The notes under the pieces: model-generated
What the model saw: the letters and a program-made list of their open reading frames with translations, nothing else
What the model was told of the DNA's origin: nothing
Database searches by the model: none
Source: Gemmatimonas sp. UBA2094
Lineage (GTDB): Bacteria > Gemmatimonadota > Gemmatimonadetes > Gemmatimonadales > Gemmatimonadaceae
Reading direction: 5' to 3'
NCBI GenBank assembly: GCA_002331565.1
Contig: DCZC01000031.1
Location: 1-11,753, forward strand
DNA: 11,753 bases
Part shown: in pieces, positions 189 through 11,753 of the stretch
Layout: each line of letters starts with the position of its first letter
How positions within the stretch are numbered: the stretch's first letter is position 1
Translations under genes and position numbers: made by a program

Positions 189-863
189 CTAGATGCTCGC
201 CGGCTCGGGCACGGCACGGCGCTCGACGGCGCGAGGCGCCGCAGTCGTCCCACGCGCGAGGTGTGACGTCGTCTCGTGGGCGGTCGCCCGGGCCACGGCC
301 TCCACCAGAATCTCCGCGACCCGCTCCGGATCGACCAACCCACGCAAGACCGGCTGTGGTTGGTTGACGTGGAATACCCGACAGTGCGGCCACAACGCGA
401 TGTAGGCCAAGCGGTGTCCGGGGGTGATCTGCAGCAGCACCTGTCCCGTTCCGTCGCGGAAACGCCCGACTCCGGCAGCCCCGATCAGGCTGAACGGAAT
501 GTTGATGGACATGGACAAGACCATGCCGATGCGAAGCACGACGCGTTCGGACGTGATGGCGTACCACGTGGTGGACGCCACGAGTCGAGCCAAGAGGTAC
601 GCGGTGGCCAGCACGAAGCCCGCCAGGACGACGCGCACCAGCAAGGCCGACCACCAGACCGGCGTCCCCACCGCCTCGGTCGTCGAGGCGAACCAGAATG
701 CAAGCATCACCCCGAAGTACACCGCGAGCAGACGCCAATGAAACACGTGCGCCGCGACCGCGCGAGCACTGGGAGCCCCTTCCCACAGAACCCGCTCGCC
801 GTCAGGGAGCGGGTGTGGTACGCCGCGGATGTACCGGGGCTCCTCAGCGTCGCGCCCGTTCAT
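189..863 (-). CDS. puhB: PuhB, photosynthetic complex (RC-LH1) assembly protein
   Basis: This 224-aa membrane protein matches the PuhB family, which acts in assembly of the RC-LH1 core. An N-terminal region ends in PHPLPDGERVLWEGAPS (residues 17-33), typical of PuhB and related bPH-domain proteins. Two hydrophobic segments follow at about 42-60 and 70-96. Then comes TTWYAITSERVVLRIG (98-113) and MSINIPFSLI (118-127), the signature of the PH-like domain after the second span. The open frame extends upstream to 1049, but residues before this ATG do not look like PuhB and would lie inside the preceding gene. The ATG at 863-861 overlaps the preceding stop in an ATGA junction (863-860), so translation is probably coupled to the H-subunit C-terminal gene. 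No independent ribosome-binding site is visible. The last 25 or so residues are polar and poorly conserved. Confidence 0.9.
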   Translation of the reverse strand: MNGRDAEEPRYIRGVPHPLPDGERVLWEGAPSARAVAAHVFHWRLLAVYFGVMLAFWFASTTEAVGTPVWWSALLVRVVLAGFVLATAYLLARLVASTTWYAITSERVVLRIGMVLSMSINIPFSLIGAAGVGRFRDGTGQVLLQITPGHRLAYIALWPHCRVFHVNQPQPVLRGLVDPERVAEILVEAVARATAHETTSHLARGTTAAPRAVERRAVPEPASI

Positions 864-1402
864 ATGATCGGCTGTGAGCGATCGTCGAAGGCGTAGAGAT
901 GTCCGCCCGCGTAGTACGCACAGATCCGATCCTCTTCGAGCAGGGTGATCTGATCGTCGCGCTGAATCGTCGGCACATCGGCGAATTGGGCGGCCGTAAT
1001 CGCCTTCACGAGCAGACGATCGTTGCCCCACAGCCCCAGATTCGGCCACTGCACGAAGCCGACCGGCACCAGGCGGCGCGCATCGCTTCCGGCCAATTGG
1101 ATTTCGTAGTAGCTCACCTGCGGCTCGGACCGGTTCACCCAGACATCGATCACCGTCCCCGCCACTTCCTTGTCCGCCGCGATCACGGGCAGGCCCCGCG
1201 GATCAGGATCACCCTTGGCGATCGTGAACGTGGCATCGAGCCGCATTGGCACGACCTTGGGCGCGCCGTGGAACGTCATGTCCGGTGTATCCGACCGATC
1301 GGCCCACGACGCGGGGCCCACTCCGTCCACCATGGGGTTCCCGGTGGGAATCATCGGCGATCCGTTGTAGTGATCAGCCGGTGTGGCCTTGATATCCGAC
1401 AT
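860..1402 (-). CDS. puhA: Reaction-centre H subunit, cytoplasmic part (Hc; C-terminal half of split PuhA)
   Basis: This 180-aa protein lacks a membrane span and aligns with roughly residue 90 to near the end of purple-bacterial PuhA. Landmarks are PTGNPMVDGVGPASW (19-33), PRGLPVIAADKEVAGTVIDVWV (split across 68-89), VPTIQRDDQITLLEEDRICAY (143-163) and AGGHLYA (165-171). In the family this domain caps the cytoplasmic side of the L/M core, stabilises the quinone sites and supplies the proton path to QB. It is a separate gene: it begins at its own ATG in a TGATG overlap with the 67-aa transmembrane part, in a different frame, with a strong GAGGGAG site 7 nt upstream. Compared with Rhodobacter sphaeroides H from memory, Glu93 and His45 match E173 and H126, while the partners of D124, H128 and D170 are Thr43, Ala47 and Asn90. 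The C-terminus is shorter than in R. sphaeroides. Confidence 0.93.
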   Translation of the reverse strand: MSDIKATPADHYNGSPMIPTGNPMVDGVGPASWADRSDTPDMTFHGAPKVVPMRLDATFTIAKGDPDPRGLPVIAADKEVAGTVIDVWVNRSEPQVSYYEIQLAGSDARRLVPVGFVQWPNLGLWGNDRLLVKAITAAQFADVPTIQRDDQITLLEEDRICAYYAGGHLYAFDDRSQPII

Positions 1403-1605
1403 CAGTGCGCTCCCTCGTCGCCGTGTGTGCGGTGGATGTAGACCTTCGCATCAGCCGGCTTGGGCCAGCCTTCGCGTGGACCCTGCGGTGACTCGAGCGG
1501 ATAGCCGGACCGCTTGTCCTCGCGACGCAGGTAATAGATGAGGCCCGCGAAGAAGAGCCAGAACGCGTAGAGCGCTGCCTGTGCACCGTCGATGTACTTC
1601 ATCAT
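1402..1605 (-). CDS. puhA: Reaction-centre H subunit, transmembrane part (Ht; N-terminal half of split PuhA)
   Basis: This 67-aa protein matches the N-terminus of PuhA. It has a single membrane helix at about residues 9-26 ([16 protein letters not shown]) followed by [12 protein letters not shown] (27-38), which lines up with the family's [24 protein letters not shown] segment. It then runs through a proline-rich linker, with [13 protein letters not shown] matching the LPKPKTFI region, and stops with TGA at 1404-1402. In most purple bacteria the same polypeptide would continue into the cytoplasmic domain; here that domain is the next gene. Two adjacent start codons exist (1605 and 1602). A GAGG at 1613-1616 lies 7 nt before the first, so I chose 1605. 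The helix should anchor the separate cytoplasmic part to the reaction centre. Confidence 0.93.
1410..1416 (-). promoter_or_regulatory. Strong ribosome-binding site for the Hc gene
   Basis: GAGGGAG reads on the minus strand 7 nt before the ATG at 1402, inside the last codons of the Ht gene. Its strength and spacing argue that the cytoplasmic half of PuhA is translated from its own start, and that the split is not a sequencing frameshift. Confidence 0.75.
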
Positions 1606-1666: not shown

Positions 1667-3112
1667 TTACGCCGGTGTATCTGCCAATCCAAACGCTCGC
1701 GGGCCAGCGGTGTCGACTGCCGCCCGACGCACGTCGAACAGCGGCCCCAACGCGACCAGTGTGACGAACAACACGACGATTTCCACCACGTACACCGTCG
1801 AATACGGCACCCCGGGCCCCGTGAGTGCCGGCCCGAGGGCTCCCTTCGCTGACAGAAGCGTCAGCCAATCCTTCATGATGCCACTCAATGCGAACGACAG
1901 TCCTTCCGCCGCCGCGAATACCGCGCCCCATGCACCGAGCGCGATGCCATGCTGCGACGCATCGCGCAGGTCCATCGCGAAGGACAATGTGCCCACGCCG
2001 AACAGCCCCTCGCCGAAGCCGATCAGCACCACGCCCGCGCGAAAGACCGCAGCGGAATCGAGCGGCCCGGCGAACGTGACCAGGGCGAAGGCGATCACCC
2101 CAAACAATGCGCCCATCGCGGCCAAACGGATAGGATCCATGCGTCGCTTGAGCAACTGCGCGGACAGCCAGAATGCCACCACCGCGCCCAACGCCATGAG
2201 CGCCGTGAGCTGCGTTGTCGAGGCCACCGACAGATGCAGAATCTCGCCGCCATACGGCTCCAGCAGCACGTCCTGCAGGTTGAACGCGAAGAACCCGAGC
2301 CCCGATGCCGTCAGCAGCCGGACCGCCTGTCCACCCTGCGCGAAGGTGCGCCAGGCATCCCGGAAGAGCGGCCGGCGCTCGCCCTTCTGGTACTCCACCA
2401 CCCCGCGCACGCGCGGCTCCTGCTTCCAGAGCGAAATCACGTTGACCACGATGGTGAACACCGCCGTCCCTTGAATCACCTGGATCAACCGCATGGCCGA
2501 GAAGTCCCGCAGCATCCCCTCGAGCACGAGCGCACTGATCAGCGTGCCAAGCAGCATCGTCAGGTACATGAGGGCTATGACGCGCGGCCGCTTCTCCTCG
2601 TCGGCCAGATCCGTCGCCAATGCCAGCCCCGCCGTCTGCGTGGTGTGAGCCCCCGCACCGACCAGCAGGAAGGCCAAAGCGGTACCTGCATGCCCGAGCC
2701 AAGAGGGCCCGACCCGCGGACCATCGGACAGCACCAACAGGGCAAAGGGCATGATGCTCAAACCGGCGAACTGGACCATCGTGCCGCCCCACAGGAAGGG
2801 CACGCGGCGCCATCCCAGGATGCTGCGGTGCGTGTCCGACTTGAAGCCGATCAACGCGCGGAACGGTGCCGCCAGCAGCGGGATGGCGAGCATGATGGCC
2901 ACCAGCGAGGCCGATACATGCAGTTCGAGGATCATCACCCGATTGAGCGTGCCGACGAACAACGTCTGCACCATGCCGACCGACAGCTGAAACATCGACA
3001 GGCGCAGCAGCCGCCCGAGTGGGAGGTCGGGCGTCGCGACGTCGGCAAACGGGAGGAACCGCGTGCCGAGGACCTGCCACACGCGCACGCCGATCGTGGG
3101 GGACTTGCTCAT
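1667..3112 (-). CDS. lhaA: LhaA/PucC-family MFS protein (light-harvesting 1 assembly, Bch2 group)
   Basis: This 481-aa, roughly 12-span membrane protein belongs to the PucC/LhaA (Bch2) branch of the major facilitator superfamily, which delivers bacteriochlorophyll to, or assembles, light-harvesting complexes. Typical segments are GTLNRVMILELHV (54-66), PFRALIGFKSDTHRS (83-97), GGTMVQFAGLSIMPFALL (109-126) and ATDLADEEKRPRVIALMY (166-183). Position just before puhA favours LhaA (LH1 assembly) over PucC (LH2). The frame opens at 3142, but the first ten codons (MCACRRCGRP) overlap acsF and look unlike the family. The ATG at 3112 starts 4 nt after the acsF stop and gives MSKSPTIG, so I chose it; no strong ribosome-binding site separates the two options. 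It is followed by 61 nt holding a hairpin before the H-subunit genes. Confidence 0.9.
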   Translation of the reverse strand: MSKSPTIGVRVWQVLGTRFLPFADVATPDLPLGRLLRLSMFQLSVGMVQTLFVGTLNRVMILELHVSASLVAIMLAIPLLAAPFRALIGFKSDTHRSILGWRRVPFLWGGTMVQFAGLSIMPFALLVLSDGPRVGPSWLGHAGTALAFLLVGAGAHTTQTAGLALATDLADEEKRPRVIALMYLTMLLGTLISALVLEGMLRDFSAMRLIQVIQGTAVFTIVVNVISLWKQEPRVRGVVEYQKGERRPLFRDAWRTFAQGGQAVRLLTASGLGFFAFNLQDVLLEPYGGEILHLSVASTTQLTALMALGAVVAFWLSAQLLKRRMDPIRLAAMGALFGVIAFALVTFAGPLDSAAVFRAGVVLIGFGEGLFGVGTLSFAMDLRDASQHGIALGAWGAVFAAAEGLSFALSGIMKDWLTLLSAKGALGPALTGPGVPYSTVYVVEIVVLFVTLVALGPLFDVRRAAVDTAGPRAFGLADTPA

Positions 3113-3116
3113 GGGC

Positions 3117-4202
3117 CTACCACACCGCCTGCATGCGCACATCCGCCGGCAGTGGCTGGCGATGCGGCGATCGCAGGAAGAGACGCAGGAACGTGAGCCC
3201 GTTCGCCACCTTGAGCGCCGTGACCTTGAGCGTGGTCAGCAGCCCGCCCTTCGCCTCCGCCGCCCGCATGGCGTCGGTATTCCGCCACATTGTCTCCATC
3301 AGCTCCCAGAACCCCTCGGCCTCGGTATCGATGGTCTCGGGAAAGACCTGGCGGCTGATGAGATTCGTGAGCTTGATGACGCTGCGATCGTACTCGTCGA
3401 CGTCGATACCCATGAAGTCGAAGAACGGTTTCCGCGCGTGATCGCGGATGTACATCGTGCAGAACACCGCCAGCAGGAAGAAGCGGATCCAGAGCTTATT
3501 CACGCCCTCGAGAAACTGCGGATTCGAACGCATGAGCACCGCAAACGCCTCGCCGTGGCGGAACTCGTCGAGACACCAGTTCTCGAACCACTTGAAGATC
3601 GGGTGGAAGCGTTTGTCGGGCTGCTTCTCGAAGTTGCGGTAGATCGTGACGTACCGCGCGTAGCCGATCTTCTCCGACAGGTACGTGGCGTAATAGATGA
3701 ACTTCGGCTGGAAGTACGTGTACTTCTTCGCCTTCGTGAGAAAGCTCAGATCCACCGCCACGTTGAAATCGTTCAACGTGTGGTTGATGAAGCCGGCATG
3801 ACGCCCCTCGTCGCGGCTCATGAAGCCGAACAGTTCGCGCACGTCGGGGTTCTTGATGCGCTTCTTGATTTCGGCGTACAGAATGCACCCCGAGAATTCG
3901 GCCGTCACCGACGACGTGAGAAATTCCACGAATTGCTCGCGCAGCGCCGGGTCCATGCCGGAGAAATCGGCGTCGAACTCTTGGTTGCGCTTGAAGTGGT
4001 CCTTGTTGGGGTCACGCCGGAACTCCGCCAGGATGTCGTCCCACATCCGGCGGTTCTCGGGCGTGATCTTCAGCGCGTCGATCTCGGCGAAGTTCGTCGT
4101 GTAGAAGCGCGGATTCAGGATCGCATCCTGCTGCGCCGCCTTGGTGGTCTCGTTGACGGGTTTCATCGCGCGGACGGGAACGTCTGTTTCGGTAGAGTAC
4201 AT
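3117..4202 (-). CDS. acsF: AcsF, aerobic Mg-protoporphyrin IX monomethyl ester oxidative cyclase
   Basis: This 361-aa protein is the di-iron subunit of the O2-dependent cyclase that forms the isocyclic (E) ring, turning Mg-protoporphyrin IX monomethyl ester into divinyl protochlorophyllide. Family signatures are LNPRFYTTNFAEID (29-42), SVTAEFSGC (98-106), SRDEGRHAGF (129-138) and WCLDEFRHGEAF (209-220). The likely iron ligands are Glu102, Glu132, His135, Glu213 and His216, giving the paired ExxH pattern of ferritin-like di-iron enzymes. The length is normal. The start at 4202 has no good ribosome-binding site (its nearest upstream bases are CTCCCC), and an alternative ATG at 4166 would remove 12 poorly conserved residues. 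It lies 10 nt after the small ORF and 4 nt before lhaA. Its presence implies bacteriochlorophyll synthesis with at least low oxygen; whether an anaerobic BchE also exists cannot be seen here. Confidence 0.96.
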   Translation of the reverse strand: MYSTETDVPVRAMKPVNETTKAAQQDAILNPRFYTTNFAEIDALKITPENRRMWDDILAEFRRDPNKDHFKRNQEFDADFSGMDPALREQFVEFLTSSVTAEFSGCILYAEIKKRIKNPDVRELFGFMSRDEGRHAGFINHTLNDFNVAVDLSFLTKAKKYTYFQPKFIYYATYLSEKIGYARYVTIYRNFEKQPDKRFHPIFKWFENWCLDEFRHGEAFAVLMRSNPQFLEGVNKLWIRFFLLAVFCTMYIRDHARKPFFDFMGIDVDEYDRSVIKLTNLISRQVFPETIDTEAEGFWELMETMWRNTDAMRAAEAKGGLLTTLKVTALKVANGLTFLRLFLRSPHRQPLPADVRMQAVW

Positions 4203-4212
4203 GGGGAGTTGC

Positions 4213-4545
4213 TCAGCCCTCGAAGCCGACTTCGTAGAGTTCGTGGATTTCGGTACCGCCGGTGAGCTTCACGATCTGGCGCTTGAGCCAGCTCGCGCGC
4301 TTCACCTCAGCGCTCGATGCGAACGTGGTCGTGGTGCCGAAGGCGACGCGACTGGGCGTGTTGCGCACCAGCACTTCATCGCCCGGATCCACTTCCACCC
4401 CATTGAGGTCCACATGCGCGTGAAAGTGCTCATGCGTCATCTCGAGGTCCACCGTGCAGGGGACCTCGCTCGTGCGCGACCGCACGTACCACGCGGCGCA
4501 GCCGACGGCGGCGGCACCGACCAGCCCCCACGTCATTCCATCCAT
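4213..4545 (-). CDS. Small membrane-anchored His-rich protein upstream of acsF; possible cyclase accessory subunit
   Basis: I cannot name this 110-aa protein with certainty. It has one N-terminal hydrophobic segment (about residues 5-21, TWGLVGAAAVGCAAWYV). A small domain follows with alternating histidines His38, His40, His42 and His44 (HEHFHAH), then DLNGVEVDPGDEVLVRN (46-62), WLKRQIVKLTGG (86-97) and the ending ELYEVGFEG (102-110). The start is well supported by GGGAGGA at 4552-4558, 6 nt before the ATG. It lies 33 nt after bchM and 10 nt before acsF, between the enzymes that make and use Mg-protoporphyrin monomethyl ester. The part after the anchor is about 75 residues, similar in size to BciE, the small accessory subunit of the alphaproteobacterial AcsF cyclase. 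A BciE-like role is therefore my leading guess, resting on context and size and not on a verified alignment. Confidence 0.8.
   Translation of the reverse strand: MDGMTWGLVGAAAVGCAAWYVRSRTSEVPCTVDLEMTHEHFHAHVDLNGVEVDPGDEVLVRNTPSRVAFGTTTTFASSAEVKRASWLKRQIVKLTGGTEIHELYEVGFEG

Positions 4546-5378: not shown

Positions 5379-5379
<1 letters not shown>
4579..5379 (-). CDS. bchM: BchM, S-adenosylmethionine:Mg-protoporphyrin IX O-methyltransferase
   Basis: This 266-aa enzyme transfers a methyl group from S-adenosylmethionine to the ring-C propionate of Mg-protoporphyrin IX, the step after Mg chelation and before AcsF. The family start block EYFDRTAADAWKALTSD (39-55) is followed by VRATVRAGRDRMR (61-73). 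The SAM-binding glycine motif is VLDAGCGTGTAS (89-100), and the acidic residue ending strand 2 is Asp114 in VVAIDLSP. Typical family members are about 225-235 aa; here roughly 30 extra, Gly/Pro/Ser-rich residues precede the conserved start. The frame is open much further upstream, but that part lies inside bchL. The ATG at 5379 overlaps the bchL stop in a TGATG junction, suggesting translational coupling; a second ATG at 5367 is possible. No strong ribosome-binding site is seen. Confidence 0.95.
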
Positions 5380-6377
<998 letters not shown>

Positions 6378-9300: not shown

Positions 9301-10205
9301 GCGTTCTTGAAGTACTTGTCGATCGCAGGGCGCGCGTCGAGAGCGCTCGAGAAACCCGCCACCACGCGCAGGCCCCTGGCTTCGAGCCCCTTCACCACCG
9401 CCGTGTAGTGCGCCACGTTGCCGGCCAGCAGATACGAGCGGCCGACGAGCACCCCAACGGTGCCGGTCCTGTTCTTCGCCACCGGCAGTGCGTCGAGATG
9501 CTCGGTGATGCCGCGGTTGGGCAGATCGGGGTGCCAGAGCCCCACTTCGGGATACGTGACCGGCTGCGCGGGCTTGAGCGCGCCCTTGAACGTGGCGCGC
9601 GGGCCGGCCGCATAACGGTCGACGGCGTACCGGATCATCTGCTCGATGTTTTCGTCGCTGCCGGCCAGCCAGTATTGGATGAGCAGCAGATACGCGCGCA
9701 CGTCCTGCGCGGTACCGGGAATAAATTTGAGCAGGTTGGGGAGCGTGCGGAGGGCGCTCATCTGGCGTTCGCCGCTGCTCTTTCCGTCGCCGCGCGATCC
9801 GCGGAGCTTCTTGAGCAGCGAAATGGGCGAGAACGGCGAGCGGCTTTCGCTCCCCATCATGTCGAACTTTCCGAGCTTCGTACACTTTACCAGATCGGGC
9901 GTGCACAGGGCGCACAGCACGGCATCGGCGTCCTGGCGACGCGCGAGTACGGCCGGCAGCACCTCGTTCGCATACTCTTCCTGAAAGAGCTGCGTGCACA
10001 CGACGATGTTGGCGCGCGCAATGTCCTGACGTGCGCGCTCCGCCGCCTGTTTGTCGGTGTGGAAGTCGGCAGCGATGTGCATGGACACCTGCAGCCCCGG
10101 AATGCGGCCGAGCCCCTGCTTAGCGCGTGCGAACGCGTCGGCGAGGTGGGCATCGAGCGTCGTGATGCAGACGCGCATTTCGGGGGTGCGGGTGTCAGCG
10201 GCCAT
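6378..10205 (-). CDS. bchH: BchH, magnesium chelatase large (porphyrin-binding) subunit
   Basis: This 1275-aa cytoplasmic protein binds protoporphyrin IX and, with the BchI-BchD ATPase (not in the window), inserts Mg2+, the committed step to bacteriochlorophyll. It belongs to the BchH/ChlH/CobN family. Motifs include [16 protein letters not shown] followed by [11 protein letters not shown] near residue 180, [16 protein letters not shown] near 440, [15 protein letters not shown] near 590 and, near the C-terminus, [16 protein letters not shown] followed by [16 protein letters not shown]. The frame is open to 10268, but the residues before [12 protein letters not shown] look unlike BchH. The ATG at 10205 has AAGGCG just upstream and overlaps the end of bchB by 11 nt; an ATG at 10178 lacks a ribosome-binding site. 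The protein is about 80 residues longer than the roughly 1190 I recall for Rhodobacter BchH, largely through an apparent insertion near residues 750-840. Confidence 0.97.
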
Positions 10206-11753
10206 AGAACGCCTTGGCGTCGTACAGGGTATCCACGCTGATCTCGGCGATCCCGTGCTCGATCGCATACCGTTCCGTATTCCGGCGGGCCTTGCCGCGC
10301 ACGAAGAACGGGATCTTCCGGAGCTCCGCTTCGGCCGGCGGCAACCAGCGCGCGCTGGTCACCACGACCGGCGTAGACGTGTCCGGCGTGAATTCGGACT
10401 CTTCCTCGGTGAGTCCAACGGCGCTGGCCGCTTCGGGCACGAGGATCTCGTGTGACTCCGTACGACTGGCCGTGGTATAGGCGTTGTCGGAAACGGCCGA
10501 GGGTTCGCGGCCAAGACCGGCCTTCGGCGCGGCGTTGTGCAGATGCGAGGGGGCGTGCCCGTCACCGAATTCGAAGTCGTCGCGGAACATGTGCAGCAGA
10601 TGCTCCTCGAGCCCCATCATCAGCGGGTGCACCCACGTATCGAAGATCACGTTGGCGCCTTCGAAACCCATCTGCGGCGAGTGCCGCGCGGGCACATCCT
10701 GCACGTGGATGGGCGCGCTGATTACGGCGCACGGCACGCCAAGCCGTTTGGCGATGTGCCGCTCCATCTGCGTGCCGAGGACGAGCTCGGGGGCGAGCTC
10801 GCTCACCTTCTGCTCCACGGCGAGGTAATCGTCGCTGATGAGCGCTTCCACGCCGATCGTCGCCGCGTACTCCCGTACCGGGCGGGCGAACTCGCGCGAA
10901 TATGTGCCGATGCCCACCACCTCGAAGCCCAGTTCGTCCTTCGCGATGCGGGCCGCGGCCAGTACGTGCGTGGCGTCGCCGAAAACGAACACCCGCTTGC
11001 CGGTGAGATACGTGCTGTCGACGCTGCGCGAGTACCACGGCAGCAGCGACCGGCTGGCATCCACCTGGGCCGTCCCCGCCCGCTCGTGTTCGAGCATCGG
11101 CTGCACATCGATGCCGGTCACGGCGCCGATCTCCTGCACGAACTCGCGCGTGGCGAGGACACCGATGGGCACCGTCTTCACCGTGGGCATGCGGAACGTC
11201 TTTTCGATCCAGCGTGCCGCCGTATCCGCGACCTCCGGATACATGACGATGTTGAAGTCGGCCTCGGGGATGCGACGGATGTCGGCCACGGTGGCGGTGT
11301 GCGGCGCGCACACGTGCACGTCCACGCCGAGGTCGCCGAGCAGCCTCGTGATCTCGCGCACGTCGTCGCGGTTGCGGAAGCCGAGCGCCGTGGCGCCGAG
11401 CAGATTGGCCCGCGGACGGCGCCCCTCACGGCGCACTACGTCGAGCACCGGCTCGCGGGCCGTGCCCGGCGGCGGGGCCAACGGTTGCAGCAGGGCGCGC
11501 ACGAGATGATAGAAGGTCTCGCTGGCGCCCCAGTTCTCCTTCTTGCTGTATGCCGGCAATTCGAGCGGCACCACCGGCACCGGCAGTGACATTCCCTGAG
11601 CCAGCGACCCCGGTTGATCCTGAATGAGTTCGGCCGTGCACGACTCACCCACGAGCAGCGCATCGGGCTTGAACCGCTCGTAGGCGTCACGCACCGACGT
11701 TTTCACCAGCTCCGCCGTGTCACCGCCAAGGTCGCGCGCCTGGAAGGTGGTGT
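10195..11753 (-). CDS. bchB: BchB, dark-operative protochlorophyllide reductase subunit B (5' end cut off)
   Basis: The window holds the last 518 residues. The missing N-terminus, about 57 residues, lies past the right edge. The fragment opens with [16 protein letters not shown], a conserved BchB block, and continues with [41 protein letters not shown] and [20 protein letters not shown]. The C-terminus carries the small reductase-associated domain ([20 protein letters not shown], then [11 protein letters not shown]). BchB pairs with BchN to form the nitrogenase-like catalytic core, fed electrons by BchL. The aspartate that ligates the NB 4Fe-4S cluster (D36 in Rhodobacter, from memory) would be in the missing part and cannot be checked. 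Two stretches look longer than usual: a proline/arginine-rich loop after the first domain and a linker of about 60 residues before the C-terminal domain. The stop lies 11 nt inside the start of bchH. Confidence 0.96.

Follow-up and report, generated by a model that had tools for sequence, protein, structure and literature searches.

The H subunit of the photosynthetic reaction centre, PuhA, is a single polypeptide in purple bacteria, whereas the locus studied here presents its membrane helix (Ht) and its cytoplasmic domain (Hc) in two consecutive genes. Are these two separately made chains, how far does such a split reach, and how did it come about? We addressed these questions in the window, the whole stretch of 11,753 nucleotides analysed (contig DCZC01000031.1 of Gemmatimonas sp. 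UBA2094, a metagenome bin that is 59% complete in 243 contigs), and in genomes within and beyond the Gemmatimonadota. The minus strand of the window carries a photosynthesis gene cluster in the order bchB (partial), bchH, bchL, bchM, a gene for a 110-aa protein, acsF, lhaA, Ht, Hc, and puhB. BchL, AcsF, and PuhB were named from NCBIfam, LhaA from Pfam PUCC, and BchB from a PDB match; the name lhaA is our assumption from position, and bchH and bchM are presumed from gene order rather than from a family call.

Table 1. Features of the window discussed in the text.
Feature	Position	Strand	Description
puhA1 (Ht)	1402..1605	-	67 aa, transmembrane part of reaction-centre H; PRCH Pfam 69 bits; PDB match
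puhA2 (Hc)	860..1402	-	180 aa, cytoplasmic part of H, with the end of PRCH and the PRC-barrel; PDB and TIGR01150 match
TGATG junction	1400..1404	-	Ht stop and Hc start, one common base (1402)
GAGGGAG	1410..1416	-	likely ribosome-binding site of Hc, within the 3' end of Ht; read from sequence
lhaA (PUCC-family assembly protein)	1667..3142	-	upstream neighbour; Pfam PUCC 430.5 bits
puhB	189..863	-	downstream neighbour; NCBIfam puhB_PGC 165.9 bits on window 192-851
bchL	5379-6275	-	NCBIfam
bchB	10195-11706	-	PDB match
110-aa protein	4213-4545	-	directly upstream of acsF

The coordinates, codon counts, and TGATG overlap given in the first-pass annotation were confirmed from the window sequence: Ht runs from 1605 to 1402 as 67 codons followed by TGA, and Hc, in a different reading frame, starts with the ATG at 1402 and continues for 180 codons to the TGA at 862-860. 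The GAGGGAG that it had read as a ribosome-binding site is present, 7 bases before the Hc ATG. The likely puhB ATG (863-861, read from the sequence) shares four bases with the Hc stop.

Both products are recognizable as reaction-centre H. Ht matched the solved chains 7o0u_H1 (E 1.2e-34 over residues 1-67) and 9h22_H (E 5.8e-31), and Hc matched 9h22_K (E 8.6e-100) and 7o0u_H2 (E 1.2e-99 over residues 1-180), so that each window product is homologous end to end to a solved Ht or Hc chain. The domains of an H subunit, the PRCH helix region and the PRC-barrel, are likewise there, with PF03967 in both pieces and PF05239 in Hc. The NCBIfam puhA model (TIGR01150) was matched in two parts rather than by one polypeptide: Ht covered positions 5-68 with 70.3 bits, short of the cut-off of 200, and Hc covered 86-261 with 231.8 bits, which exceeds it. 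A chance pair of open reading frames is excluded because both match the PRCH/PuhA models and the solved chains end to end. When the window was compared with nine relatives, dN/dS was 0.13-0.35 for Ht in eight (the ninth was saturated) and 0.13-0.45 for Hc in all nine, and both genes look to be under purifying selection.

The separate, adjacent genes between lhaA and puhB closely resemble those of two solved Gemmatimonas complexes, and the window genome shares genus code g1 with the corresponding genomes, G039 and G074. In G. phototrophica (PDB 7o0u-7o0x), RC-Ht and RC-Hc are separate chains, as the first-pass annotation had noted, of 67 aa (H1) and 181 aa (H2); the genes have 67 and 181 codons, and the TGATG junction recurs in G039, whose Ht equals 7o0u_H1 letter for letter. 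Identity between G039 and the window is 79% for Ht and 78% for Hc, and the differences are substitutions and one more Hc residue in G. phototrophica, with no architectural difference seen. G. groenlandica is split alike according to passages of PMC12817894; we infer that PDB 9h22/9h19, whose chain names Ht and Hc are the depositors' own, come from this species. G074, whose Ht equals 9h22_H, also has the TGATG junction, is 74% (Ht) and 77% (Hc) identical to the window, and differs by substitutions and an Ht shorter by one residue. The fused PuhA of purple bacteria, such as PDB 3wmm_H (presumably from Thermochromatium tepidum), likewise has the helix followed by the cytoplasmic domain and is flanked by lhaA-like and puhB-like genes, but it is one polypeptide.

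Published accounts already describe this type. PMC12817894 (2025), in the passages available, treats the split of puhA into puhA1 and puhA2 as a Gemmatimonadota-specific modification present in G. groenlandica, G. phototrophica, and Pseudogemmatithrix, infers that it is relatively recent and predates the divergence of Gemmatimonas and Pseudogemmatithrix, and models Ht and Hc as two subunits of the G. groenlandica complex; part of PMC10214105 describes the split H of G. phototrophica. Because the solved chains were matched and the split is published as specific to the phylum, the window pair is, by homology, a further member of this known type, and the feature is real and well conserved. We found no wider survey of split H in the literature searched, by titles, abstracts, and some passages, a coverage that excludes most subscription journals. 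What is added here is a census, the reach of the split past the window's order, a variety of junctions that argues against recoding, and a revised figure for the length of the linker.

The linker is shorter than in fused proteins, by less than the roughly 20 residues that the first-pass annotation had estimated. Measured from one fixed motif to another, it spans 50 residues in the window and a median of 59 in fused H (range 55-69; 42 of 44 fused proteins measured), so the net shortening is about 9 residues. On a profile of the 44 fused H proteins, window Ht aligned to position 67 and Hc from position 83, which leaves positions 68-82 (about 15) without a counterpart. Among 22 representatives of the split form, the Ht match ended at fused-profile positions 61-74 in 19 and at 87, 91, and 102 in the three whose tails are long, while the Hc match started at 81-94 in 21 and at 100 in one. 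For genus g18, we do not claim that Hc retains the second strand of the fused-linker hairpin; the profile left those residues unaligned.

The split proved general among the phototrophs sampled in the phylum. Searches with PF03967 gave 44 matches among 395 genomes sampled across the Gemmatimonadota, 44 (43 above the cut-off) among 179 genomes of the window's family (f1), 11 among 121 of family f5, and one among 102 of family f2, the other families being covered by the sampling only. After one PRCH match that fell short of the family cut-off (G429) was removed, 55 distinct genomes in 18 genus codes stood above it, and Ht and Hc were separate open frames in all 55, with no fused or continuous puhA frame in any; G408 (L093), in which Hc is cut by a contig end, was counted as split and omitted from the trees. 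Thus the spread that the first-pass annotation had posed as open is largely answered, and the origin in part.

Outside the phylum, H was fused in the loci and genomes covered. An Hc-only scan of genome contigs returned 46 loci, of which 45 were fused and the one split locus was a Gemmatimonadetes record. Matches above the cut-off, each a single match without a stop, numbered 3 in a sample of 329 genomes from the phylum to which the genome behind L051 (titled Myxococcota) belongs, 27 in 385 genomes from the class of Aquibium carbonis, and 7 in 369 from the class of Rhodocyclus purpureus; the PRCH matches of G671 and G1077, below the cut-off, were left out of these counts. All 37 of these genomes have fused H, and they overlap the 45 loci by at least three (the genomes behind L051, L047, and L048). 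Protein searches leave room for a free-standing Ht beyond the phylum: the Ht profile gave 1058 matches, of which 120 were listed, and another search gave 2612, of which the 120 listed were all 180-182 aa. The taxon names seen among the matches listed were from the Gemmatimonadota, one of them Longimicrobium. Purple bacteria make this core photosystem subunit as one protein, whereas the Gemmatimonadota phototrophs sampled here encode it in two pieces; as a rare change common to them, split H could help to recognize photosynthesis clusters of this phylum in metagenomes.

Several individual records deserve mention. P0253, among the matches listed, is a 74-aa Ht-like protein named after a Longimicrobium MAG; if it does come from Longimicrobium, a free-standing Ht would exist in yet another lineage of the phylum. 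L057 (3307-3871, plus strand) holds a fused puhA frame of 181 aa from which about 85 residues are absent, from within the helix onward; this deletion is either an assembly artefact or real, and the locus was counted as fused and omitted from the trees. Two record titles look wrong: L041, titled Klebsiella pneumoniae, lies close to L044, which is gammaproteobacterial, and L043, titled Anaerolineae, is nearly identical to alphaproteobacterial L045.

The junctions indicate how the two pieces are likely to be made. Of 55, 40 (the window included) have the -1 overlap, eight a -4 overlap, one a gap of +19, and one a gap of +50 bases, and in five a stop is followed 3 bases on, after one sense codon, by an ATG in the same frame; the Hc start of G455 (GTG) is uncertain. 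The different frames noted in the first-pass annotation hold for the window and not as a general rule. The Ht proteins of f1 are 65-94 aa long, those of f5 79-162 aa. A Shine-Dalgarno match of at least 4 bases preceded the Hc start in 52 of 55 genomes, compared with 26.5% of 8156 control positions, the codon boundaries within Hc, and a match of at least 5 bases in 35 of 55, compared with 8.9% of these control boundaries, values that are not independent because the 55 genomes are related. Three of the 55 Hc starts lacked a 4-base match.

We conclude that Ht and Hc are very probably two separately translated H chains in this lineage, a reading of the genes that we weighed against two ways in which the split could be merely apparent. 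A programmed -1 frameshift or stop readthrough might fuse the pieces: a -1 shift before TGATG would link both window frames, and in the five in-frame relatives both parts already share a frame. Because the junctions vary (-1, -4, +3, +19, and +50) and the stop codon of the in-frame ones may be TAG, TAA, or TGA, no single recoding signal suits all, and separate translation fits this variety better than recoding does; two chains are moreover listed in the solved complexes, and the Shine-Dalgarno matches lie where Hc would be initiated. We regard such fusion as very improbable. That the break in puhA is an error of sequencing or assembly is barely credible: the completeness and contig number of this bin would allow for it, but the split is also found in 54 other genomes, including the single-contig assemblies G039, G074, and G129, and purifying selection is apparent on both frames. 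Under separate translation, the adjacent genes are probably translationally coupled, with ribosomes ending Ht at the TGA and re-initiating at the overlapping ATG, aided by the internal GAGGGAG. The membrane helix and the cytoplasmic cap would then be made as separate chains and, by analogy with the solved Gemmatimonas complexes, would assemble non-covalently on L and M.

Whether H was split once is less clear from the trees. When the linker was retained, a quick H tree had one branch (SH-aLRT 86) between 54 split and 44 fused rows. This clean separation was weakened by two careful trees without the linker, of which the first needed four state changes (at least two forced by starred branches) and the second three (one forced), and by an AU test. 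A single change was seen in none of 200 bootstrap trees for either, and the second tree placed genus g18 (three genomes) and G425 among the fused rows; in the AU analysis, the other 50 split rows formed one side of a branch (97/84). Genus g18 may on this evidence have broken its H gene independently, by an in-frame stop and start: one linker-free tree groups it with fused proteins (91/80), the other likewise lacks a single split clade, and its junctions are in frame with Ht and Hc together at the full fused length of 260 aa. Against this, the AU test did not reject a single split clade (p 0.47), the g18 branch is long, the break site is much alike across the 22 representatives, and a quick LhaA tree united 27 Gemmatimonadota rows, g18 included, in one clade (SH-aLRT 97). 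More than one split is in our judgement unlikely. A single origin is the simplest reading of these sequences, which they fit without proving: one split would have occurred in the common photosynthesis-cluster ancestor of the sampled phototrophic Gemmatimonadota, followed by drift of the junction.

The split is probably older than its published date, since it is present in a relative outside the window's order. Family f5, which carries it, is labelled 'same class' as the window and so lies outside that order. Four f5 loci (L088-L091) extend far enough to reveal the place of acsF, which follows puh in all four. The parts of PMC9426454 available give this arrangement for subtype I clusters in the SG8-23 order, and we infer that f5 belongs to this order. 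Its split H makes the 'relatively recent' date in the passages of PMC12817894 unlikely, unless the cluster moved between orders, and fits a single acquisition before the orders diverged, the view taken in those parts of PMC9426454. The published trees, as presented there, were read as a transfer from Proteobacteria, which implies that H underwent fission; the change may well have been fission rather than ancestral separation. That separate Ht and Hc are the older state, and the one-piece purple-bacterial H a later fusion, we consider highly doubtful; if it were true, the Gemmatimonadota photosynthesis cluster would not descend from a purple bacterium already having fused H. Rooting with the L/M paralogues gave opposite answers, L placing Gemmatimonadota among purple-type rows and M placing purple rows among Gemmatimonadota. 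Rooting BchL with the ChlL of PDB 2ynm was dropped: picocyanobacterial BchL/N/B are sometimes in a proteobacterial clade (passages of PMC7842958), so this ChlL is no valid outgroup, and NifH sat on a branch of length 10.

One bin, G439, contains two pufLM sets on contigs C38 and C235 (L179 and L199). One set groups with f5 rows, whereas the second falls with purple-type rows and rows from the L051 phylum; the likely cause is contamination.

Two further observations concern other genes of the window. The ChlL of 2ynm, which we take to be a Prochlorococcus structure, is 85% identical to G039 BchL and nests within Gemmatimonadaceae BchL (99/88; bootstrap not settled). An AU test rejected a Gemmatimonadota BchL clade without this ChlL (p 0.014) and did not reject an f1 clade without it (p 0.071). 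For window BchB, the highest-scoring PDB match was 2ynm_D (subunit B; 588.8 bits), with the next at 561.5 and 2xdq_B at 269.4. These similarities, from a tree with one ChlL only, suggest a Gemmatimonadaceae-like source of the 2ynm enzyme; passages of PMC7842958 already place the 2ynm-type enzyme in a proteobacterial clade that includes Gemmatimonadetes.

The 110-aa protein had no match in Pfam, NCBIfam, or PDB. Of the 45 loci outside the phylum, 21 encode a relative (36-48% identity) upstream of acsF, and no beta- or gammaproteobacterial title occurs among these 21; several other outside loci have acsF without such a relative. The place of its gene suggests that the protein is BciE, the order bciE-acsF being given in part of PMC10576062.
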